Shown here: piece by piece, positions 1-17,930 of the stretch
How the letters are laid out: each line of letters starts with the position of its first letter
How positions within the stretch are numbered: position 1 is the stretch's first letter
Source: a virus
Strand: one strand, 5' to 3'
IMG/VR virus record: IMGVR_UViG_3300024518_002133
Coordinates: 1-42,674 of that record
Length of the DNA stretch: 42,674 nucleotides
Program-made: the position numbers and the translations under genes
The notes under the pieces: generated by a model
Seen by the model: the letters and a program-made list of their open reading frames with translations, nothing else
The model's database searches: none
Told to the model about the DNA's origin: nothing

Positions 1-162
1 AGTTAATGCTGAAATATCTAATGGCTCCGGTAAATGGAGACCTAGAGCAATGAATATATTTCTTGCAATGCTTTGTATTCATTACGCTTTGTATGATATA
101 GCACCATGGATAATAACAGTATTTGAGATTAATGTATGGATACCTCAAGACCCTGGATTTAC
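1..162. repeat. Terminal direct repeat, left copy
   Basis: Bases 1-162 match 42513-42674 at 160 of 162 positions. The differences are G127 versus A42639 and A157 versus T42669. Both fall in third codon positions of the holin gene and are synonymous (Glu GAG/GAA, Gly GGA/GGT). The repeat shows the sequence closes into a circle or is terminally redundant, with a unit of about 42,512 bp. It may be an assembly overlap rather than a physical packaging repeat. Confidence 0.93.
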
Positions 163-253
163 AGATGGATTGTTGTCAGTAATTAAACTTGGATTGGGTG
201 GATATATTTCAGGACGTAGTGTAGAAAAGGGTTTAAAGATATGGAAGTCTTAG
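1..253 (+). CDS. 3TM holin, C-terminal part (5' end is at 42394)
   Basis: This is the 3' part of a holin-like gene whose start lies at the other end of the window (42394). Joining 42394-42512 to 1-253 gives one uninterrupted 123-residue protein. The visible part has a Lys/Trp/Arg stretch (GKWRPRAMN), a first membrane segment (IFLAMLCIHYALYDIAPWII) and a second glycine-rich hydrophobic segment (LLSVIKLGLGGYISGRSVEK). This order matches the 3TM holin family known from gene-transfer agents and many phages, which permeabilises the inner membrane at lysis. In-frame codons begin at base 2. The HNH gene begins inside its last codons. The family is recognised from layout, not from a search. Confidence 0.8.
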   Translation, partial: VNAEISNGSGKWRPRAMNIFLAMLCIHYALYDIAPWIITVFEINVWIPQDPGFTDGLLSVIKLGLGGYISGRSVEKGLKIWKS

Positions 254-5421: not shown

Positions 5422-6611
5422 TATTTACCTCTCAATTGTTTTTTTCTTTCTTCTACTCTAGCTCTCATTTCTGGACTTAGATCTGGTCTTAGGTTTACAG
5501 ATTTCTTTGGTCCTATCTTGTTTCTAATAGTTTTTGAAAAAGTTCTTTCTTCTTCCATTAGTTGCTCTAGAGCTCTACTAGCTATTTCTGCTCTTAGAGG
5601 TTGTGTGTCTATAATACTTTTTAATTGTTCTGTTTGTTGTCTAACAACTATTTTTCTAAACTCTCTTAATTTTGCTTCGAATCTAGGGGCAGCATCTAAA
5701 GTGTTAGGTACGACTGCTCTAAGAAATTCTCTTTCTTGTTCACTAACTGTAGCACCAGAAACACTTCTTAAGTACTCAGCAATATTAGCTTCAGTCTCTA
5801 CTCTAAGTCTATCAAATCTAGGTCTATCTTTACCAAACATTGAAGCTAAATTATTAAATCTACCTTCGACTATACCGGTCTTAGGATCTCTTATATTGAA
5901 TAAGTCATCTATTCTAGTAAGGGATTTTCTAATTATATTTGCACCAGCTTGTTTAGTTTGTTGAGCAGGATCAAATTGTGCTGACTTATCAATAGATAAA
6001 TCTAGTCTTTGTTGTTTTTGTTCAAACTCTTTACCTACTCTATGCTCGAATCCTTTTCCTCGTCGTCCTTCACCTTTTTCAAGTAATGCTATTTGTTGTT
6101 TTCTAAGAGAAATATTTTCATCAGCTTGATTCAACCTTCTTTCTTCTGCAGGAGTTAGTTCATCGGCATTTGCTAATTGCTCTCTTTTAGCCTGACTTAA
6201 AGCTAATTCTTCATCTAATTTACGCTGTTCATTAACTATGGACCCACCTAATTCAGCACCTCCAACAAATCCTTCACTACCACCAATCGCAGCACCAACT
6301 AACCCACCAGCAATCTGGGGTAAGAACGCTGTAAAAGCTGCTGCAAACTTATCAGATATTGATGATCCTTCTGGATCTTTCTCTATATTTTTTGTAGCTC
6401 TTTTTAACTTCTTAGGACTTTCTATTTTCTTGACAGCTTTCTTAGCATCTTTTTCACTAAGACCTGCTTCAACAGCTACTTGCTTTGTAGGCTTAGCTGG
6501 TTGAGGCTGTGCTACAACTTCTCTAGGCTGTTCTGGTAATACACCAGTATTAGCTCTGTCTAGAATATCCATCCCTAAATTCAATTTATCTTCTACTCTC
6601 TTCTTAGCCAT
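5421..6611 (-). CDS. Internal virion protein with glycine-zipper segment (396 aa)
   Basis: This basic protein has Lys-rich residues 40-80 and a glycine-zipper hydrophobic segment (about 95-125: FAAAFTAFLPQIAGGLVGAA, then IGGSEGFVGGAELGG). A long coiled-coil region at roughly 130-215 follows. The C-terminal domain (about 225-350) includes RSVSGATVSEQEREFLRAVV, a pattern I associate with unnamed podovirus structural proteins. It is probably an ejection protein that can insert in membranes. It overlaps the GNAT gene by 8 nt upstream and the 662-aa gene by 1 nt downstream. Confidence 0.7.
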   Translation of the reverse strand: MAKKRVEDKLNLGMDILDRANTGVLPEQPREVVAQPQPAKPTKQVAVEAGLSEKDAKKAVKKIESPKKLKRATKNIEKDPEGSSISDKFAAAFTAFLPQIAGGLVGAAIGGSEGFVGGAELGGSIVNEQRKLDEELALSQAKREQLANADELTPAEERRLNQADENISLRKQQIALLEKGEGRRGKGFEHRVGKEFEQKQQRLDLSIDKSAQFDPAQQTKQAGANIIRKSLTRIDDLFNIRDPKTGIVEGRFNNLASMFGKDRPRFDRLRVETEANIAEYLRSVSGATVSEQEREFLRAVVPNTLDAAPRFEAKLREFRKIVVRQQTEQLKSIIDTQPLRAEIASRALEQLMEEERTFSKTIRNKIGPKKSVNLRPDLSPEMRARVEERKKQLRGK

Positions 6612-7059
6612 TTAAGACATCCTCGCATTTAAAATGGTTTAAATTATCGCTCTTAACCATCATCGTCATATTTGATCCAACTACCTGAAAACCTAAATAT
6701 TTGTATAAGTCTTCTAAATGTTTGGCATTCTTTTGTGTATTATCAAAGCTTGTTATAATTGTAGTAGCTTTGCTTTCTTTAGCTAGTTCCAGTATTCCCT
6801 CACTAACCATTTGTATTGCTAGATTTTTATCTGATCTAGCAGCATTCTTATCACACACAAGCCATTCGAAATGACCTATGCTAGAGTTACTTGTATAAAG
6901 AAACCCTGCAGCCACGTCTTTACCGTCTAGGCTTATTATTATTCCTGTCTTTGGAAGTTGCTCTAACGGGCACGGGCACCAATCCCATTGTTCCCACCAA
7001 CTCACTAATAAATTGTAATCCACGTTTCCAAATCTTCGCTTCGATATTGTTGCAAACAC
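6604..7059 (-). CDS. GNAT-type N-acetyltransferase
   Basis: This 151-residue protein has the layout of small phage GNAT proteins: an N-terminal YNLLVSWWEQWDWCPCPLEQ segment with LPKTGIII, a central VAAGFLY strand, an HFEWLVCDKNAARSDK acyl-CoA-site-like region, and a late LYKYLGFQVV motif typical of the GNAT fold. It would transfer an acyl group to an unknown protein or small-molecule target. The start is GTG 7059, set by a perfect AGGAGG 8 nt upstream. Its first 140 nt lie inside the 3' end of the Hint-domain gene in another frame. Similar acetyltransferases commonly sit among podovirus tail genes. Confidence 0.82.
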   Translation of the reverse strand: MFATISKRRFGNVDYNLLVSWWEQWDWCPCPLEQLPKTGIIISLDGKDVAAGFLYTSNSSIGHFEWLVCDKNAARSDKNLAIQMVSEGILELAKESKATTIITSFDNTQKNAKHLEDLYKYLGFQVVGSNMTMMVKSDNLNHFKCEDVLNG

Positions 7060-8131
7060 CTTTAATACCTCCTATACTATATGGTGTTGAAAAATCAGCC
7101 AACGTTTGACCATTGATCTCTATCTCACCATTATCACAGTATATATTGTATACCGGTTGTACTTCCATATCCAGTTTAATCGCTTCTAATGAGTTTTCAA
7201 CTTCTAGCCATCTACCTGATTCATTAACAACATGCTTTGCTGTAATTGTAATTCCTCTCCACATATAGAAGTCTGTTCCAACTCCCATGCCTGTAATACC
7301 CACGACATTACCATTACTTAACACGTCACCAGGAATAAGATCCTGTATAGCTTTTTTACCTTCTGTAGTGTCTATCATAGTATCTGCTGGAAAACATGAT
7401 GGAGCTTGTACTTGAGCAGCTCTAACAGAAGCTGCTGATGCTGCTGCAGCTCCTCTTTCAGCACTACCGATTTGAGCAAAACCCAGACCAGATTGTAATA
7501 ATATATTCTTTTCAGCTGCTTGTTGACTTAAATCAAATTGAGCTATGTCACCTTGGGCTTTACCTAGGTTTTGTACACCTTCTACTCTAGCGGCTCTATC
7601 AGCTATTGTAAGGTCTCTTTCGAACTGAGCCTTCTGCTGAAGTCCACCTAGCTGAACGTCTCTCTGTTGAGCACCTGCTGCCCCACCTTTAAGACCTGAT
7701 CTAGACTGAGCTCTTTGTAATTGTCTTGACGCAGTCTGAGTACCTTGATTAATTCCTGATAATGCACTATCTCTTCTGGCTGATAATTCTTCTGCAGAAA
7801 AACCTTGACTAAGATCTTCTAGTCTACCCATAGTACGTGAAATACCTTCATTCTCACCAAGTCGTCCTAAACCTTCTTCACCTAGAACGTTTGATCCAAA
7901 CCTAGCACCGGCTTTAATATCTGAACCCATAGGTCCCTCTACTCCAGCGCTTAACTTATCTGCTCTTATCTCTGCTTCAGACTTAGGTAATGCTGCTTTA
8001 GCTGCTGCTGCTTTCCTAGCTTCTTCGGCTGCTTTTGCCGTGGCTGCTTGTTGTGCCTCTGCTTGGACTCTAGCCCTGTTTAATGCCGCTGCTGTTGCGT
8101 TGTTTGTTTGTTGACTTGCTCCACCACCCAT
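6920..8131 (-). CDS. Virion protein with C-terminal Hint (hedgehog/intein-like) domain
   Basis: Residues 1-240 are Ala/Gln-rich and helical, like internal or tail-hub virion proteins. Residues 246-350 form a Hint-type domain: a nucleophile-type C246 in SCFPADTMIDTTEGKK, the block LIPGDVLSNGNVVGI, the TxxH-like ITAKHVV (H300), and a closing EIEINGQTLADFSTP. Hint domains cut the bond before their first Cys. The C-terminal His-Asn plus Cys/Ser of splicing inteins is absent, so cleavage without splicing is expected. The last 46 residues are read from DNA that also encodes the start of the GNAT gene, and look incidental. Cleavage would release the first ~245 residues. Confidence 0.78.
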   Translation of the reverse strand: MGGGASQQTNNATAAALNRARVQAEAQQAATAKAAEEARKAAAAKAALPKSEAEIRADKLSAGVEGPMGSDIKAGARFGSNVLGEEGLGRLGENEGISRTMGRLEDLSQGFSAEELSARRDSALSGINQGTQTASRQLQRAQSRSGLKGGAAGAQQRDVQLGGLQQKAQFERDLTIADRAARVEGVQNLGKAQGDIAQFDLSQQAAEKNILLQSGLGFAQIGSAERGAAAASAASVRAAQVQAPSCFPADTMIDTTEGKKAIQDLIPGDVLSNGNVVGITGMGVGTDFYMWRGITITAKHVVNESGRWLEVENSLEAIKLDMEVQPVYNIYCDNGEIEINGQTLADFSTPYSIGGIKGVCNNIEAKIWKRGLQFISELVGTMGLVPVPVRATSKDRNNNKPRR

Positions 8132-8448: not shown

Positions 8449-10734
8449 CTATTCCTTTATCTGTAGAGCGTACGGTGCTGCTACTTCTAATTCAAAACCT
8501 GATATTAATACATTTTCATGTAGGTTTGAGTTTTCAAATAATAATCTCATTGATCTAGACTTTCTAGATGGTAACTTATTCTTTAATCCAGATAGCCTAG
8601 ACTCACCCCAAGGAAAGTCTCCCCAAGCACTGTTACCCCACCCTTCAGCACCACCGGAAAAGTCCAGGGAAAAGTTAGCTACTGTAGAACTCACATAATT
8701 ATGTTCAGACTTAACTGTTAATATGAAATCATCTGTTTCAAAGTTATTTAAACTAGCGTCTAATGAGTGTACCTTAACTCTTAGAAACTTTTTATATACT
8801 GAAGGCTCCCCAAGAGATTCCCAATTACTAGTATATGAAAAACTAATAGAATTCTCATGATCTGCGTAATCATATGTATCATTATTATCTAACATACGGT
8901 AAGTATAGTTCTTGACAGCGTCAGTAGCTATGTCTAACTCTCTACCAGTAAAGAAGATTGTATCTCCGGTTTCCGCCATGTTTCCGCCAATATTGAGATT
9001 GTCCCATTCGAACCACCCTTTACGGAATTTATCATATACTAGTATTTCTGAACTACCCATATTGAAGTAATTAACACTACTTGAATTAGTTGAAATTACA
9101 GGCATTAACAAGACATATTTTTGCTCATCTACCCAATTGAAGGCTACAGCCTTACTGAAATCAAATGCATTACCTGGGGCAAACTTTGGTTTTATAGTAG
9201 CTGATTCTTCTACAGTTCCTTGCGGGGTTACAGAGTAGACTCCGTGTTCTGAAAGAAACCATACTTTACCATCGATCTCTTTGATCGTTTGGTTCGCTAC
9301 ACAACCTATCCCTTCTTCTGAGAATGTATCAATAGTGAAACTTGAAGTTCCTAAATCACCAGTAATAACTGATATGGATTTTTCTTTAAATATATAGAGT
9401 GCATTATCAAGAGGCTTTTGACCCATGATCTTACCCCCGGCTCTCGTATCAATTAGGAAACTATTATCTACACTATATCCCTCTGTGGCTTGTATGTCAG
9501 AGAAATGTACTGTTGAAGCTTGTGTTCTAGTACCTGTAATAATTAGTTGACTTCTCCATACATCAATATATCTACCTTTTGGTGGTAATCCTGGCTGTAC
9601 TATAGGAGTAATAAATTCAGCTCCTAAAGAGTTATCTGCAATATTATCCGTGTATGATTGAGTAGCTGAGGTTCCATCATTAGTTAATTGAGTCACTAGG
9701 AAATAAGTTCCTGTTTCAGTAGACCCAGCTTTAGTTCGATAAATATTAATATTTAGGTCAGTTGAATCTGTATCAAATCCAGTAGAATCTTGAATATTAT
9801 CTACAACAATATCTGCTTTTTCACTAGCAAGTACTACTGAGATAGCATCTGAGATAATACCTTCTATATAGTTCTCTTTAGCATCGGTATATTCATATGT
9901 AACTCTATAATAATATGTTGAGTTCAATACTCCAGCTATACCTACAGATACACTATCTAGTGATCCAGTTGGTAAACCTGCTCTGTATACTCTAGTACCG
10001 TCATATTTAAATAAGTCATCATACCCATTACTTATATACATAACTTCATTAACAGAAGCGAAAGTAGCATTCTCAAAATCATCATCATCTCGGGCTGCTT
10101 CATGAGCACTAAATGGTGTTGTGTAATTTGTTGGGGTACTTACTGTAGTCCATACATTAAAGTCAATAGCTACTCCTGTTGATGGAACATCTATATCTCT
10201 ATTCTTTGTAAGGAAAGCTGCTGGTTCACTACCATTTCCACTTATAACAGACGAGAAGTCAGTTAGAGCGTTAATAGCCGTATTCAATGTTGTGATTGTT
10301 ACAAAGGATGCCTCTTGTCCTGTACCTAAGTCTAGATTCAGTAATCTAGTATCAATATCATATATATCAAATCTAAATACGTTAGACGTACCTGAATCAT
10401 CGACATACATATCATACCTAGCTGTATTTGCTCCAGTATAAGTTATTGTTAAAGTTTCTGTTGTAAGTTTATGAAGGTCATCATCTACTGTAAGAGTTTC
10501 TTCAGTAACAACACCTGTAGTAGTATTAACATTAGCAAAAGTAGTTGTACCTAATCCACCCTCTGTACGAGTAGCAATCTGATATCCCTTTCTTTTACTC
10601 ATGGCTCCAGTAGTTCTAAGGCTTACATTCTGCATAGCAGTAGCAGCATTAGAAGATCTGAGCAGGTCACTTGACCTTAGATCCAATCCTTCGAAAGCAT
10701 TGAATATTTTTTGTAATTTATATTGACTAGCCAC
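8449..10734 (-). CDS. Tail nozzle / tail tubular protein B-like (761 aa)
   Basis: This is a large beta-rich protein starting with NAFEGLDLRSSDLLRS and SKRKGYQ, the opening seen in podovirus nozzle-type proteins ('G..lr..p....y..A....N......g.l.kR.Gy'). The middle carries repeated beta-strand blocks, including GVAIDFNVWTTV, GSTETGTYFLVTQLT and YVLLMPVISTNS, and the C-terminus has Trp/Gly-rich GGAEGWGNSAWGDFPWGESR. In T7- and P22-like particles this protein forms the tube below the adaptor ring. Its length is close to T7 gp12 (794 aa). The adaptor gene lies directly upstream, 3 nt away. Confidence 0.78.
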   Translation of the reverse strand: MASQYKLQKIFNAFEGLDLRSSDLLRSSNAATAMQNVSLRTTGAMSKRKGYQIATRTEGGLGTTTFANVNTTTGVVTEETLTVDDDLHKLTTETLTITYTGANTARYDMYVDDSGTSNVFRFDIYDIDTRLLNLDLGTGQEASFVTITTLNTAINALTDFSSVISGNGSEPAAFLTKNRDIDVPSTGVAIDFNVWTTVSTPTNYTTPFSAHEAARDDDDFENATFASVNEVMYISNGYDDLFKYDGTRVYRAGLPTGSLDSVSVGIAGVLNSTYYYRVTYEYTDAKENYIEGIISDAISVVLASEKADIVVDNIQDSTGFDTDSTDLNINIYRTKAGSTETGTYFLVTQLTNDGTSATQSYTDNIADNSLGAEFITPIVQPGLPPKGRYIDVWRSQLIITGTRTQASTVHFSDIQATEGYSVDNSFLIDTRAGGKIMGQKPLDNALYIFKEKSISVITGDLGTSSFTIDTFSEEGIGCVANQTIKEIDGKVWFLSEHGVYSVTPQGTVEESATIKPKFAPGNAFDFSKAVAFNWVDEQKYVLLMPVISTNSSSVNYFNMGSSEILVYDKFRKGWFEWDNLNIGGNMAETGDTIFFTGRELDIATDAVKNYTYRMLDNNDTYDYADHENSISFSYTSNWESLGEPSVYKKFLRVKVHSLDASLNNFETDDFILTVKSEHNYVSSTVANFSLDFSGGAEGWGNSAWGDFPWGESRLSGLKNKLPSRKSRSMRLLFENSNLHENVLISGFELEVAAPYALQIKE

Positions 10735-10737
10735 GTG

Positions 10738-11688
10738 TTACCACCACCCGATGCCTCTATTTGAGTTACTATTTAAATCTGGAATCTTAGAAAGATCATC
10801 AATTATATCTGCATAACCAGCTACAATCTCTCTTTCCATCTCTAATAGTTCCTGCTGTTGTTCTGCATAATCTGCACTTGAATCTCTCTTAAGAATCTTC
10901 CAAGCACAATACGCTATCAAGTATCTTTCGACTGCGTCAGGTAATTCACTATGAGTTGTTACATTTCTACCGCTTACAACATAATCACCAGCAGTAATAC
11001 TCTCACCCGTTGTGTAAGCAAACCCTGAAGTAATAGTTACAATACCAGTAGTTGTATCAATTGAATCAAATTCAATATTACGCATTTTAACGTTTCCATT
11101 TCTATCAACTATAGAAAGATAGTTATTCTTACCTAGTGCGGTTGAATCAATATTATCAGTGCTTACATTTAACGTAAGGGCTGTTATAGAATTGTCTGAT
11201 GAATCTAATGTAGAAGATGCTACTGATGCTCGTCTCTTATCAAGTTTAAGAATTGATCTAATGTACGAAATTCTTATTGATCCTCTAGATGCATCTGGTA
11301 CTGGAGCTAACAATATAGTTCCACTCTTCCTAGTGTAGAAAGATGGTATACCTAGAATACCTGAAGCTCTATTACGTAGACTTGCGTGATCTAGTGGATA
11401 ATAATCCTGATCCAGACTTGTATCTGAATAATCTACTTGAGTTACTTTATTAGCCAAATGTATATCTTGAGGAAGTGTATAGGACTCTTGACTTCTGACA
11501 ATGTCTTGACTTTCCTCAGCAACAAATACGGCTGGATGTTGTTGTACTATAAGTGAGTGTATTCTATGATGTGCATCATTTAAGAACCTAAGAAACTCTT
11601 TATCCCCAATACCTTCAGTATCAGAGAATTCTTCATTCTCAGTATGCTCTCTCACATCTTCTATTAAATAATCTATTAATCTACTCAT
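10738..11688 (-). CDS. Head-tail adaptor / tail tubular protein A-like (316 aa)
   Basis: It opens with a helical domain (LIDYLIEDVREHTENEEF, then EFLRFLNDAHHRIHSLI), followed by QESYTLPQDIHLANKVTQVD and a region ending in RYLIAYCAWKILKRDSS. This arrangement matches phage adaptor proteins of the gp4/gp11 type, which sit between portal and nozzle. A beta insertion at about 155-240 makes it longer than the T7 counterpart. It starts with TAATG coupling to the small upstream gene and is followed by the nozzle gene, the normal order in podoviruses. Confidence 0.78.
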   Translation of the reverse strand: MSRLIDYLIEDVREHTENEEFSDTEGIGDKEFLRFLNDAHHRIHSLIVQQHPAVFVAEESQDIVRSQESYTLPQDIHLANKVTQVDYSDTSLDQDYYPLDHASLRNRASGILGIPSFYTRKSGTILLAPVPDASRGSIRISYIRSILKLDKRRASVASSTLDSSDNSITALTLNVSTDNIDSTALGKNNYLSIVDRNGNVKMRNIEFDSIDTTTGIVTITSGFAYTTGESITAGDYVVSGRNVTTHSELPDAVERYLIAYCAWKILKRDSSADYAEQQQELLEMEREIVAGYADIIDDLSKIPDLNSNSNRGIGWW

Positions 11689-12368: not shown

Positions 12369-13232
12369 TTACTTTTTAATTACTATATAAGTCATTGTTC
12401 CGTTATTACCAGTGGAAGTTGATACATATTTTAATATTCCAGCGTCTTCAGTAAACGTTACTCCTACATCATCTCCACCAAATGTTTCTGATATGAATGA
12501 GTTTGATTCTTCCATCTCAATTATACCCTGCTGTACATTAGTACCTCTAACTATCCTATATTTTATTTCACATGCTTCGTTACTAGCCAATGTTATAATT
12601 CCAGTAGTTGTAGCTGCTACTGTATTATCAGTTAATGTTACACTTGCACCTTGTTGAACTAGTGTAGGTGTTACAGTAGCTATTGTTGCAGCTACTATGT
12701 CGGCACCTACAGTAATAGTATCGGAAGTATTTACTTTGAACATATTAATATATGCAGAGTCAGCATTATTTCTGCCTGTATAGTAAGCATCATTATTTAT
12801 AGCTAAATTAGCTACGTCGGCTCCTATTGCAATCTTATCGCTGGTGTTTATTTTCAACATATTTATGTTAGCACTATCAGCATTATTCCTACCCGTGATG
12901 TAAGTATCATTTATGATACCGGCATTAGCTAGTAATGCTCCTAGTGCCAATTCATCGTTTGTATCAACTTTAACTATATTAATATTTGCGGAGTCTGCTG
13001 CATTCCTACCTCTAAGATACTCATCATTATCTAATCTTATCTTGGCTCCTGTTACAGCATCTGCTATAAGAGAACCAGTCCCTAATTGAGCCCCATTCCC
13101 TGAACCTGTATGATTGTGTTCTGCTATTTTTTGAAACGTATCAGTCTTCATAGTATCACCCCATGAAGTAGTTCCATTAGTTGGAACTTTAATCTGTAGT
13201 TCAGAGCTTGTTCCTAATGTTAAAAATGCCAT
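12369..13232 (-). CDS. Tail fibre / receptor-binding-type protein with internal repeats (287 aa)
   Basis: The N-terminal SELQIKVPTNGTTSWGDTMK and AEHNHTGSGNGAQLGTGSL segments are typical of phage fibre anchors that bind the virion. Residues 68-184 carry three tandem ~39-residue repeats with core GRNxADSANIN, which look like a repetitive beta shaft. The C-terminal ~100 residues are beta-rich and probably form the tip. This is likely a host-binding appendage. Its small size suggests several appendage proteins share this job, in line with the many beta-rich genes upstream. Confidence 0.75.
   Translation of the reverse strand: MAFLTLGTSSELQIKVPTNGTTSWGDTMKTDTFQKIAEHNHTGSGNGAQLGTGSLIADAVTGAKIRLDNDEYLRGRNAADSANINIVKVDTNDELALGALLANAGIINDTYITGRNNADSANINMLKINTSDKIAIGADVANLAINNDAYYTGRNNADSAYINMFKVNTSDTITVGADIVAATIATVTPTLVQQGASVTLTDNTVAATTTGIITLASNEACEIKYRIVRGTNVQQGIIEMEESNSFISETFGGDDVGVTFTEDAGILKYVSTSTGNNGTMTYIVIKK
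12681..13031 (-). repeat. Three tandem ~39-codon repeats in tail fibre gene
   Basis: Residues 68-106, 108-145 and 147-184 of the fibre protein align with each other: each has N-D-x-Y, then TGRN(N/A)ADSANIN, then a K-(V/I)-(D/N)-T-(N/S)-D segment and a GAD(V/I) turn. The period is 39 residues (117 nt). Such repeats build fibre shafts and can vary in number by recombination. Confidence 0.8.
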
Positions 13233-13243
13233 ATGCTATCCTC

Positions 13244-13570
13244 TTACTTTAAAAGTAATTCTAAATCTTCTTTTGTTAATCCCAGGGACGCTACCTTTTC
13301 CATTACTTTAGCTAATCTGGTTTCTCTCTCTATCTTCGCTATTTCTGCATCTGCAGTATCTTCAATTATTTTAATCTGTCTTTCCTTATCAACTATAAGA
13401 CGAGCTCCCCATTTTTTTAAAAATCCAACACTTGATATAGATTCTTCTGGTATCTTACCGTCTTTACGTTCATCCCATACGACAAGAGATTCATCAAAGT
13501 AAGAACCGGACTCTTCTATTTCTATAAGTTCTTGTTTACCTGTTGGAGCATTTACTATTATTTTATACAT
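13244..13570 (-). CDS. Putative tail fibre assembly / chaperone-like protein (108 aa)
   Basis: An N-terminal beta part (MYKIIVNAPTGKQELIEI, then SYFDESLVVWDERKDGKIPE) is followed by a long C-terminal helix (about 60-108). The Y-F-D-E-S-x-V-x-W-D-E-R pattern and the position between two fibre-like genes suggest a fibre-associated or assembly protein. This is inferred mainly from context. It is coupled to the preceding gene by TAATG. Confidence 0.55.
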   Translation of the reverse strand: MYKIIVNAPTGKQELIEIEESGSYFDESLVVWDERKDGKIPEESISSVGFLKKWGARLIVDKERQIKIIEDTADAEIAKIERETRLAKVMEKVASLGLTKEDLELLLK

Positions 13571-14463
13571 TATACACGTCCTATTTTTGCAATTGAAAAA
13601 TTAGCTCTGGCTTGTGCTGCTGTAGAACCGCCTCCACTTGTATGTACTCTGACCACATCATCTTTAACTAGATATTGTACAGTTCCATAAGCCATTACAG
13701 TACCAGCCGCAGCTTCACTTAGAGCTTTCTTGTCTGCTGTTGTTATGGATAATATAGATGTTGTTAATTGCGTACTATTTACACTAATGCCACAATAATG
13801 AGGGGAGCTAAATAAATCTACTCCATGCATATGATACATGCCGGATTCATTGATTGTAAACGTGGCACCTAAAGTAGATGAGTCTGCATATGTTATAGCA
13901 GATCCTTGATTGGTTACGGCTGTAGTAAATCGTCTTATCACAGTGTTAGTTGATCCGTGTCCATTTTCAGTATGGAGATCAACAAAACTATCAATCTGCT
14001 GTCTACCATGTATAGTAAACCAATTACTACCATCGTTAGTTAGAATTACTGATTGGTATTGTCTATCTAGATTTATCGTTAATGCTCCATCTACAGTCTC
14101 ACTAGCGTTTCCATCAATAGTTATAGCCCCAGCCGTACTATCTATTTTACTAATATAGTAGATCTGACCGCTATTAGAGGCTGCTGCAGGAAGAGTTATT
14201 GTGAAAGCCCCTCCAGTTGCATCAGCAAGTATACATGTATCTGAGGCTGCTGCAGTGTAAGTAGTTGTTTTTGTTTTAACATCTATTGTTGTAGCTCCTG
14301 CAGACAAAGGTATCTGGGTCCAGGCTCCACCAATATATTGCCACAGACCTTCTGTACGGGCTGTCCCATCGCTCATCTGCAACTGTCCGTTACTAGGTGC
14401 TGCAGGATCTGCTGACTGAGGATCTAATTTTATTCCTATTTTATGCGTGCTAACGTTACTCAT
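13570..14463 (-). CDS. Beta-rich tail/appendage protein with C1q/TNF-like C-terminal domain (297 aa)
   Basis: The N-terminal segment contains NGQLQMSDGTARTEGLWQYI, a form common in phage fibre proteins, then a beta domain with GGAFTITLPAAASNSGQIYY and SVILTNDGSNWFTIHG. The C-terminal ~130 residues (TFTINESGMYHMHGVDLF; ending RANFSIAKIGRV) look like a C1q/TNF jelly roll, a trimeric binding fold often seen at phage appendage tips. It is probably a trimeric receptor-binding or decoration protein. It is distinct from the five-gene family upstream. Confidence 0.7.
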   Translation of the reverse strand: MSNVSTHKIGIKLDPQSADPAAPSNGQLQMSDGTARTEGLWQYIGGAWTQIPLSAGATTIDVKTKTTTYTAAASDTCILADATGGAFTITLPAAASNSGQIYYISKIDSTAGAITIDGNASETVDGALTINLDRQYQSVILTNDGSNWFTIHGRQQIDSFVDLHTENGHGSTNTVIRRFTTAVTNQGSAITYADSSTLGATFTINESGMYHMHGVDLFSSPHYCGISVNSTQLTTSILSITTADKKALSEAAAGTVMAYGTVQYLVKDDVVRVHTSGGGSTAAQARANFSIAKIGRV

Positions 14464-14612: not shown

Positions 14613-15236
14613 TCATTCTCCCTTAACTTCTGGTGTAGCTAAATACGCTATCATAGTTGCTCCTATGTATTGAACAGCAAATCCTGTTGCTGGGGGTGCT
14701 AGGTCTACAGTTATCGTTATACTATCTCCAGAAGTAATTATAAAGTTTTCTAGGGCTACGCTAAATCTATTTTCATTGGGAGCAGCATATCCATTCCATA
14801 TCACAATCCCTCCCACATTTGTGGAAGAATCTAATCCGTTATATATATCAGCATCTAAAACATTATTAGATGATGTGTTCATATTTGAATTATAAGAAGG
14901 TGCTGTTGCGCTACTTATTATAGTACCTCCTGTAGGATTTTTATATATCTTATATACAACATCTCCTTGTGATGGAGCAGTAAATGAACCTGCGAGATCT
15001 CCTTTATAGAAATCAACCCGTTCGATATTTAAATCATAAATTTCATTATTTTTAACATATAGAATAGCTGTTTCTGCAAAGTTAAATTTATTTATTCCTG
15101 CATTACCAAACATATATCTATGCCCTAACTCTCCTGCTTTTTGTGCTCTTGTTATATTAGTAGCTTGAGTAACAAGTGCATTATTACTGTCTATTTTACC
15201 TTTTCTTGAAGTACCTGTTCCATCGGTTAATTTCAT
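14613..15236 (-). CDS. Appendage family member 5 (207 aa)
   Basis: This is the last of five tandem related genes. It has the family signatures in order: N-terminal LTDGTGTSRKGKIDSNNALV, then AILYVKNNEIYDLNIERV, YKNPTGGTIISSAT, and VLDADIYNGLDSSTNVGG. The C-terminal signature is changed (IITSGDSITITVDLAPPA instead of LPKGSS). The fold should be an all-beta sandwich. Its place between capsid and fibre genes suggests a virion decoration or tail-side protein. It overlaps the preceding gene by 4 nt. Confidence 0.75.
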   Translation of the reverse strand: MKLTDGTGTSRKGKIDSNNALVTQATNITRAQKAGELGHRYMFGNAGINKFNFAETAILYVKNNEIYDLNIERVDFYKGDLAGSFTAPSQGDVVYKIYKNPTGGTIISSATAPSYNSNMNTSSNNVLDADIYNGLDSSTNVGGIVIWNGYAAPNENRFSVALENFIITSGDSITITVDLAPPATGFAVQYIGATMIAYLATPEVKGE

Positions 15237-15676
15237 ACCACTGCCTCCGGTCTGGCTTCAACATAATATCCTGTAACTGTTATAAAAATATCATCATCAT
15301 CAGTTTTAATATTTAACCACTTACCTTCGCTTAGAATCAAATTTAAGGAAGATAATACTAAGGAGGTTTGTTTCACCATTTCAATGCTAAATACGTCTTC
15401 TGTAGAAGTTAGGGTATCTGAAGCATCTGCTTCATAAACTGTAACAGTGGCATCTGAAGCTCCAACACTCTTATTAGCATACAAAAGAACTGAGGTTATA
15501 ACAAACTGCTTATTTGTCCTAGGAGTTATAATATTATATGCTGTATTAATAACAGCTGCTGTGGCATTATATACTTTTGAAAAAGCTAATGGAGCAGTTA
15601 TTAACTGACCTCGGGAACTTACTTTAGCTAAAGTTCCTTTTCCTCCACCGTCTGATATTTTAGTTTTAATCGACAT
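15233..15676 (-). CDS. Appendage family member 4, divergent (147 aa)
   Basis: It shares the N-terminal signature (ISDGGGKGTLAKVSSRGQL), and the aligned middle is only loosely similar (ITSVLLYANKSVGASDATVT). The PTxGTLIS and LPKGSS signatures are missing and the protein is about 50 residues shorter. It probably kept the virion-attachment N-terminus and changed or replaced the outer domain. It lies in the middle of the array with the same spacing as the others. Confidence 0.68.
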   Translation of the reverse strand: MSIKTKISDGGGKGTLAKVSSRGQLITAPLAFSKVYNATAAVINTAYNIITPRTNKQFVITSVLLYANKSVGASDATVTVYEADASDTLTSTEDVFSIEMVKQTSLVLSSLNLILSEGKWLNIKTDDDDIFITVTGYYVEARPEAVV

Positions 15677-15682
15677 TAGTTT

Positions 15683-16264
15683 TTAACTCTCCGTATCTTT
15701 TAAATGACAAATAATTGCTACGTAATAATTAGCTGATCCTGAACTTATATTAGCAGTTAATTCTATAGCTAAACTACTACCTTTTGGTAATACGAAATCT
15801 ATACTATAAAAACTTCTTCCACCTGGAGTTACTTGAAGTATGGCTATATCATCTCCATCAGTTACAGTATTTCCAGAAGCTCCTTTATAAACATCTGCTA
15901 CTAGTATCTTAGAAGAGCCAAAGTTTCTATTTTGCTTCATGTCTACATCTGTGGCACCACTTATAAGTGTACCTGTAGATGGATTTCTAATTAATGTTAT
16001 GTAAGGATCATCAGAATGTGTTATTCCTTCAAAAGATCCTATAGCAACTGCTTCCACAACAATATCTTGGTTTTCATTATTTTTAATATACATTAAGGCA
16101 GAGTTTGCAGATACTGCTACTAAACCTGTATTAAGATTATACCCGTCACCTTGTTCTGCAGCATGTAATGCTTCACTTTCTGCAATAGAAAGTGTATGAA
16201 GTCTATTATTGGCATCGACTTTAGCATCGTTTCCATCACCTGTTCCATCATTAATAATTGCCAT
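15683..16264 (-). CDS. Appendage family member 3 (193 aa)
   Basis: It carries all family signatures: INDGTGDGNDAKVDANNRL, LMYIKNNENQDIVVEAV, NPSTGTLISGAT, NRNFGSSKILVADVYKG and FVLPKGSSLAIELTAN. It is an all-beta virion protein by appearance with no signal peptide or membrane span. It is most like members 1 and 2, as expected from tandem duplication followed by divergence. It starts 3 nt downstream of the previous gene's stop. Confidence 0.78.
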   Translation of the reverse strand: MAIINDGTGDGNDAKVDANNRLHTLSIAESEALHAAEQGDGYNLNTGLVAVSANSALMYIKNNENQDIVVEAVAIGSFEGITHSDDPYITLIRNPSTGTLISGATDVDMKQNRNFGSSKILVADVYKGASGNTVTDGDDIAILQVTPGGRSFYSIDFVLPKGSSLAIELTANISSGSANYYVAIICHLKDTES

Positions 16265-16267
16265 TTC

Positions 16268-16843
16268 TTATGTCCTTTTTAATACTGCTTCTGCAGTTAT
16301 AGTTATATTTAGATTTGTATTAGATGCTCCAGGTATTATACTAATTGCTATTGAAGTACCTTTAGGTACTACCCATGAAATATCTGTATTGAAAAATTCA
16401 GCTTCTTGTATATAAAATGCTCCTATAGCTGTTCCATTTGTAACTGAGGCTCCTTCTTGACCTGCTGCGATAGTTGCATCTAAAGTAATTGCTGAACCAA
16501 AATTATTATTTACAGCATTCTTACTTGTACTGGCACTTAATCCGGTAGGACCTTTATATACATATGCAGTAAATACTCCAGCACTACTACCTGTTTGTTT
16601 AGTTGAAGTAACATTTATAGCTGTCAATAATAAATCACTATTTTCATTATTTTTTAAATATAAAACAGCGCTCTCACTAGCACTTGTTAAATTTACTATA
16701 CCAGAACCTATTTGAAATGCTTTACCAGCCAAAGATTGAGATTGTTGTTCTGTTCTTCCTACAGAGCTAACCTCTAGTTTATTATCTGCACTTACTTCTG
16801 CTTTAACTTTTGTACCTGTACCATCTTGAATAATTATAGACAT
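16268..16843 (-). CDS. Appendage family member 2 (191 aa)
   Basis: Family signatures visible: IQDGTGTKVKAEVSADNKL, VLYLKNNENSDLLLTAI, YKGPTGLSAST, NNNFGSAITLDATI and WVVPKGTSIAISIIPG. The signatures sit at similar positions to the neighbours, about residues 5, 60, 95, 115 and 165. The fold is predicted beta sandwich. Direct role unknown; the array position suggests head or tail decoration. Confidence 0.78.
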   Translation of the reverse strand: MSIIIQDGTGTKVKAEVSADNKLEVSSVGRTEQQSQSLAGKAFQIGSGIVNLTSASESAVLYLKNNENSDLLLTAINVTSTKQTGSSAGVFTAYVYKGPTGLSASTSKNAVNNNFGSAITLDATIAAGQEGASVTNGTAIGAFYIQEAEFFNTDISWVVPKGTSIAISIIPGASNTNLNITITAEAVLKRT

Positions 16844-16851
16844 ATTGGCTC

Positions 16852-17448
16852 CTAAAGCTGATCTTCGTTTAAAGTTGCGTTAAATGCTGCCACTATATCA
16901 ACACTTGTAATACCTGAAGGTGGTGTATAAGATACTGCTACTGAACTACCTTTAGGTAGTACAATAATTGTACTGAATGATATAAGTGTTCCTAAAGCAG
17001 TTGAAGGTAAATACACTTCTAAACTAGAATCTGAGGCAGTAATTGTTGACCCCTCCACTCCTTCATAATTTGTAATATCTAAAGTCTTAGATGAGCCATA
17101 ATTCCTATTAGATTGAGACCCGGTTGTAGCCGCACTAATAAGAGTACCTGCAGTAGGTTTCTTATAAATCTTCAAAGTTGGTTGTCCATCTGTCCCTACA
17201 TAATCTTTTATATTTATAATAATATTATCTATTATAAGATTTCTATTCTCATTGTTTTTTAAATAAAGTATTCCTGATTCTCCACTAGTAGTTAAAGTAA
17301 TAGCACTACTATTTATATTATATGTATCACCAGATTCTGTTGCTGCTTCCGTTAGTGTAAGATTAATACCACTAACTTGTACTCTGTTATTCTTAGTAAC
17401 TCCAGCAGTAAAGCCTTTCCCATTACCGTCTTCAATTACAATGCTCAT
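16852..17448 (-). CDS. Appendage family member 1 (198 aa)
   Basis: This is the first gene of the array in transcription order. Signatures: IEDGNGKGFTAGVTKNNRV, ILYLKNNENRNLIIDNI, KPTAGTLISAAT, NRNYGSSKTLDITNYEG and IVLPKGSSVAVSYTPPSG. Its start overlaps the preceding 161-aa gene by 4 nt. The shared N-terminal DGxGxxxxAxV element recalls short segments at the start of many unnamed phage structural proteins and may be the virion-binding part. Confidence 0.78.
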   Translation of the reverse strand: MSIVIEDGNGKGFTAGVTKNNRVQVSGINLTLTEAATESGDTYNINSSAITLTTSGESGILYLKNNENRNLIIDNIIINIKDYVGTDGQPTLKIYKKPTAGTLISAATTGSQSNRNYGSSKTLDITNYEGVEGSTITASDSSLEVYLPSTALGTLISFSTIIVLPKGSSVAVSYTPPSGITSVDIVAAFNATLNEDQL

Positions 17449-17930
17449 AATAATCCTTTTGAATCTTCGTCAGTTATTGTCTCTAGTTGATTTGTATGAT
17501 CTACTAAGTGTCTTTCTATATCACATAAGGTAGAATTCATTTTTAATAATATATCCTTTATAGATGTATTTAAATCATTAATTGATTCTGCTACAAATTC
17601 TCCATCTGTAAAAAACGCACTACTATATGTTTCTGTACTACTTAAACTTGAGTTATATGTTGTACATCTAAATCTAATTCTATCCCAACTAGATATACTA
17701 ATTAACTTAGATTCATTTCCAACAACTTGATCTAATACAGTCCACTCACGATCTGTTTCTATTCTGGCTTCTATAACTAGACTATGCGTACCTCTTGCTC
17801 CTGGAGTACGTACCCTAAGAGCTACTTCTCTTAATACTTCATGTCCATTTTCAGGTGATATAAAACCTTCTGTTGTGTACTCGTAAGCAGCTTGAAATTT
17901 ACTACCTAAACCTGAATTCGCTTTTGCCAT
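17445..17930 (-). CDS. Structural-type protein with beta domain and coiled-coil tail (161 aa)
   Basis: Residues 1-110 look like a beta sandwich (LREVALRVRTPGARGTHSLV, then SWDRIRFRCTTYNSS). Residues 115-155 form a heptad-rich helix (ESINDLNTSIKDILLKMNST). It precedes the five-gene array with a 4-nt overlap and may be the hub or partner of those proteins. It is not itself a clear member of the family. Function not recognised. Confidence 0.68.
   Translation of the reverse strand: MAKANSGLGSKFQAAYEYTTEGFISPENGHEVLREVALRVRTPGARGTHSLVIEARIETDREWTVLDQVVGNESKLISISSWDRIRFRCTTYNSSLSSTETYSSAFFTDGEFVAESINDLNTSIKDILLKMNSTLCDIERHLVDHTNQLETITDEDSKGLL

Follow-up and report, generated by a model that had tools for sequence, protein, structure and literature searches.

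Decoration of virions by a base protein that carries a head protein is already known. In the HFTV1 turret, a base hexamer is located on MCP hexons and the head trimer inserts into it, with the N-termini at the interface (PMC12494034). The PhicrAss001 head fibers gp21 and gp29 bind hexon centers through short N-terminal segments and have outer domains; the two fibers occupy different hexon sites, and gp29 has a beta-sandwich as its outer domain (PMC10172136). The cement protein of KHP30 and Pam1 contacts the capsid through an elongated N-terminus (PMC9698820).

The gene array described here shares features with these systems and also differs from them. The HFTV1 turret is the product of two consecutively numbered genes (base gp30 and head gp31), and its base takes up a second oligomer; however, the turret head contains a deacetylase-like domain and consists of one head protein, whereas the arrays encode three to five paralogues. 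PhicrAss001 gp21 and gp29 have the short N-terminal segment and outer domain that are also predicted for the array proteins, but each fiber is one protein and no separate base gene has been described. The trimeric cement proteins of KHP30/KHP40, Pam1, and GP4 are likewise beta-sandwich surface proteins, with an elongated N-terminus in KHP30 and Pam1, but they occur as a single species per capsid, have no base gene, and give TM-scores on the query below 0.5.

Array genes and predicted protein fold

The window, i.e., the whole 42,674-nucleotide stretch analyzed here (IMG/VR record IMGVR_UViG_3300024518_002133), contains five consecutive array genes, all on the minus strand and transcribed from position 17448 toward position 14613. 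Gene g1 (16852 to 17448) encodes a 198-aa protein with an arm (residues ~1 to 28) and a predicted beta-sandwich, g2 (16268 to 16843) a 191-aa protein of the long class, g3 (15683 to 16264) a 193-aa protein of core long class A, g4 (15233 to 15676) a 147-aa protein of short class C, and g5 (14613 to 15236) the most divergent long copy, of 207 aa. The gaps between successive genes are 8, 3, 6, and −4 nt, and g1 overlaps by 4 nt with an upstream 161-aa gene (17445 to 17930, minus strand); because of the short gaps and this overlap, the genes look like one operon. The 161-aa gene holds the position of the helix-tailed gene of other loci (see below) and is thus a candidate anchor, or base. No Rfam family was found near the array. 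Elsewhere in the window, two same-strand ORFs (6604 to 7059 and 6920 to 8131, minus strand) overlap by 140 bases, and the second has a subthreshold match to a Hint domain (E value, 0.0055).

The original prediction of five related, beta-rich proteins that have an N-terminal element in common was supported. The motif DGxGxxxx[AG]x[VI] is located close to the N-terminus in exactly these five of the 277 ORFs of the window, compared to 0.06 expected from shuffled sequences. The four long proteins are mutually related (BLASTP E values of about 2e-12 to 2e-29; shuffle z scores of 18 to 35), and g4 showed a weak BLASTP match to g3 (E value, 0.002; z score, 8.4) and was found by the family profile at 3.7e-28 once its short relatives were included. 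The profiles of the long and short classes aligned over 120 columns with a probability of 94% (E value, 1.3e-7).

Some details of the shared blocks had to be corrected. The block [LM]Y[LIV]KNNE is indeed common to the four long copies, but PTxGTLIS is missing from g2 and the LPKGSS-like block from g5, which has ITSGDS instead. The best-conserved parts of the four copies are the arm and two loop blocks, the arm being 40% conserved versus 19 to 29% in other stretches. Similarly, g4 had been thought to combine the common N-terminus with a changed, shorter outer domain. It is shorter, but it is homologous to the others over most of its length, not in the arm alone, and is therefore a shorter relative of the common sandwich rather than a protein with a new outer domain.

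AlphaFold2 predicted g3 with a pLDDT of 90.1 and a pTM of 0.82 as a single sandwich (residues 31 to 188) with blocks mostly at 91 to 98 pLDDT, behind an arm of low confidence (51 to 81). The g4 model (pLDDT, 79.6) has the same arm-and-sandwich layout but is smaller. Among predicted viral proteins, one clear relative was identified (42% identity; TM-score, 0.90). No solved structure was a good match, the best PDB TM-score on the query being about 0.5. Of the phage structures, the nearest to the short-class model, weakly, were the trimeric cement proteins of KHP40 and KHP30 (TM-score, 0.48) and Pam1 capsid chain H (0.44); the long-class model gave a TM-score on the query of 0.30 with Pam1 chain H. 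These matches, together with the elongated capsid-contacting N-terminus of the KHP30 and Pam1 protein (PMC9698820), would be compatible with sandwiches that assemble into trimers on the shell and reinforce it, with no role in adhesion. We regard such a purely cementing role as quite improbable, since neither class reached a TM-score above 0.5 on the query with the KHP30/Pam1-type fold and since cement is usually made of one protein species per capsid, in contrast to the three to five divergent paralogues and the variable base gene found here.

Two other candidate relationships were examined. In sequence comparisons with solved structures, the only low E values (3.4e-7, short class) were obtained with "Tako8" proteins, which we take to be designed repeat proteins; the match covers 37 residues and was considered nonhomologous. 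A remote candidate is a predicted structure, assigned to Pantoea phage LIMEzero ORF57 on the basis of protein length, that resembles the array proteins in fold (TM-score, 0.66; Foldseek E value, 8e-10), and its family, phrog_5335 (function unknown), was matched by 4 of 38 array family members (best E value, 6.5e-6). However, the five window proteins gave no match to phrog_5335 up to an E value of 1, and despite the similar fold and the marginal PHROG match, homology was not significant by hhalign (probability, 3.7%), including when the 177-aa class alone was used. The phrog_5335 proteins also differ in their N-termini and gene contexts and occur as single copies. Proteins related to the sandwich of this type at L033 (27458 to 28001; LIMEzero ORF57) occur in 117 phage records, almost always with the annotation "hypothetical."

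Family distribution and the helix-tailed upstream gene

Searches of IMG/VR detected relatives first in some twenty loci and in all in dozens of contigs, and iterated profiles gathered 62 family ORFs, duplicates included. The usual array consists of two long genes and a short one, with short class C as the last family member in most of the other arrays; the window array, with four long copies and one short copy, is the largest seen. The records searched whole contained one array each. The family was not recognized as a described one in the original prediction, and the libraries agree with this: neither Pfam nor NCBIfam has a model for it, and PHROGs gave only marginal links to families of unknown function. 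Above the curated cutoffs, there was no match in Pfam to the long class or to g4 alone, and none in NCBIfam to the long class, for which two single matches were at chance level. No match was obtained by tblastn of six family members against 50,697 phage records or by a search of species genomes with the short-class profile, and tblastn of helix peptides against the phage records found no named relative.

The arrays are linked to a second gene family, which the original prediction had missed. In the other loci with upstream sequence, the product of the gene adjoining the array (in L014, of a gene between the two copies) has at its C-terminus an amphipathic helix with an acidic tail. The helix occurs in two flavors, ELKxxNLHLSxxTDxxI and LLNARxEEAFETxIxxxD, and depending on the phage, it is preceded by collagen-like repeats (L001), by a "VDPFV"-type protein (L027 and L030), or by nearly nothing; in L006, the "VDPFV" protein and the helix are two separate ORFs. 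When the helix profile was built without the tested locus, the array-linked gene ranked first in all 16 loci other than the window (46 to 166 ORFs per locus; E values, 3e-14 to 0.03). In 15 of these, the helix gene abuts the first array gene, and in L014 it lies between the two copies.

The linkage also holds in the forward direction. The helix alone, used as DNA patterns against the whole viral collection, retrieved 27 new loci, 24 of which were evaluable in that they had a C-terminal helix and downstream sequence (L047 and L062 end at the helix, and the L061 match lies within an ORF and is due to chance). Arm-sandwich genes follow the helix in 23 of the 24 (family E values down to 9e-59), although some of these loci are near duplicates (L057/L058, L067/L074, and L068/L070) and so do not count as independent. 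Thus, a separate gene for a putative base is linked to the display genes in both the leave-one-out and the forward comparisons. The array genes of L066 do not abut the helix but begin 380 nt after it. L052 is the only counterexample found: its helix-tailed protein (9490 to 9521, minus strand; LLNARIEEAFETRIELEDITHAD), which is the same as that of L047 (2278 to 2309), has no arm-sandwich gene after it.

Proteins of ~365 to 370 aa are encoded after several arrays, namely, in L066 (~1.6 kb past the helix gene), L018 (8558 to 9670), L046 (3731 to 4840), L069, and L072. The 367-aa protein of L066 matched the arm profile (E value, 0.0046), which suggests that other outer domains may be carried on the same arm. 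The idea that a single attachment element bears a variety of outer domains consequently fits the comparison across phages but not the array itself, where the five outer domains have one fold.

The 161-aa gene of the window itself was not recognized by the helix profile (E value, 30; 5.9 with an enlarged profile). However, the C-terminus of its product and the L016 helix give a gapless alignment of 25 residues; of 200 shuffles, 1 reached its score of 44. The closest relatives of g3 and g4 are likewise found in L016. Residues 117 to 161 (17448 to 17582, minus strand; NSTLCDIERHLVDHTNQLETITDED, compared to NSVLYEILRELRKLNKQIEIMTGED of L016) may represent a divergent version of the helix, and on this alignment we propose with moderate confidence that the 161-aa protein is a divergent anchor.

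Genomic context and history of the arrays

The array family occurs in very different tailed phages, i.e., P22/SU10-like, HK97-like, and sheathed ones. The window array has P22/SU10-type portal, adaptor, and capsid genes as neighbors. In the HK97-like L001, the array is located between the genes for the HK97-type portal and the major head protein, and in L017 it has a PHROG virion protein at the capsid gene position upstream and a tail sheath gene downstream. A portal gene is near the array in L001, L016, L019, and L020, with the array directly after it in L016 and L020, and the head closure gene Hc3 is beside the array in L006, L024, L027, and L031. Wherever its position could be judged, the array belongs to the head or neck section of the virion genes, in line with the proposed virion role. 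In L001, the interval from the array to the head protease gene (8935 to 11442) contains several ORFs, of which one is HNH/AP2-like and another has DUF285-like repeats as judged by eye.

On its other side, the window array is followed by two minus-strand genes for fiber-like proteins: a 297-aa protein, probably a fiber, whose middle part weakly matches baseplate phrog_20556 (13570 to 14463; E value, 3e-6), and a 287-aa protein with three ~38-residue repeats (GRNxADSAxINxxKVxTxD...) and a weak tail PHROG match (12369 to 13232). These genes would fit a tail-side receptor-binding set, in which the upstream gene encodes the shaft of a tail fiber or tail needle and the array products form its tips, as would the location of the array after the Hc3 gene in L006, L024, L027, and L030, about where P22 carries tail-needle gene 26. 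Such a tail-tip device should depend on the tail type, whereas the module is also found after the portal gene (L016 and L020), in the portal-capsid interval (L001), and between a capsid-position virion gene and the tail sheath gene (L017), so that we consider a tail-side role unlikely.

The relationships of the copies were examined in a tree of 53 family members. Members of the short class group together in a separate clade (support, 100/100), and several long classes are distinguished. The array had been interpreted as a product of duplication and diversification, but g1 pairs with the first array gene of L001 (58% identity) and g3 and g4 pair with L016 genes (52% and 51%), whereas the copies within the window array share at most 37% identity. 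Since they are nearer to the copies of other phages than to each other, the set is ancient and not the result of recent local duplication. A recent tandem duplication in the window phage, diversified under selection, would account for the adjacency of paralogues of one family, and later duplication could explain g2 and g5, for which no close counterparts were found (best identity of g2, 37%; the placement of g5 close to the first genes of the L016 and L006 arrays is not strongly supported); however, the closer relatives of g1, g3, and g4 elsewhere and the distinct short clade make it highly improbable for the set. L001 and the window phage differ in capsid and portal type, which makes exchange of the array between phage backbones likely. 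Coupled evolution of the arms within one phage, for which P values of 0.016 and 0.008 were initially obtained, was largely lost after removal of related contigs (P values, 0.24, 0.03, and 0.78).

A putative two-component surface module

We lean toward an interpretation in which tailed phages have a portable surface module of two components, with the five genes as its display component and their products probably coating the virus head or neck. In each product, a conserved, flexible arm at the N-terminus (I-x-DGxGxxxxAxV-x-x-x-N-x-L) would carry a single beta-sandwich domain. The upstream gene would encode the base, with a variable N-terminal part presumed to sit on the head or neck of the particular phage and a shared C-terminal amphipathic helix. 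Most probably, the helices would assemble into an oligomeric stub, with the arms folding into it, and one base type could thereby carry several different sandwiches, usually two long and one short and, in the window, four long and one short. The exposed sandwiches may then act as accessory, multivalent adhesins that bind the host surface, or they may stabilize the shell. Several observations fit this interpretation less well: the upstream gene of the window is connected to the helix family by a single pairwise match, that to L016; L052 has the helix without an array; the window array adjoins the fiber-like genes; and solved structures offer no good match.

A more general form of display, in which the short helix on a phage-specific base is a socket for a standard N-terminal arm, is offered tentatively. 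Podo-, sipho-, and myophages could then gain or swap different surface proteins in modular form, from the array sandwiches to larger proteins like the 367-aa one of L066, and mixed spikes might result.

In the family libraries and literature searched, we found no description of the family, of the anchor helix, or of their joint spread over unlike phages. The results define an undescribed, probable virion protein family and its probable anchor, in phages known from metagenomes only, and provide two sequence signatures, the arm and the helix, that predict each other. If the arms do dock to the helix, this would account for the sharing and expansion of surface adhesins among unrelated phages whose capsid genes stay unchanged, and the arm would constitute a natural tag for a display system.
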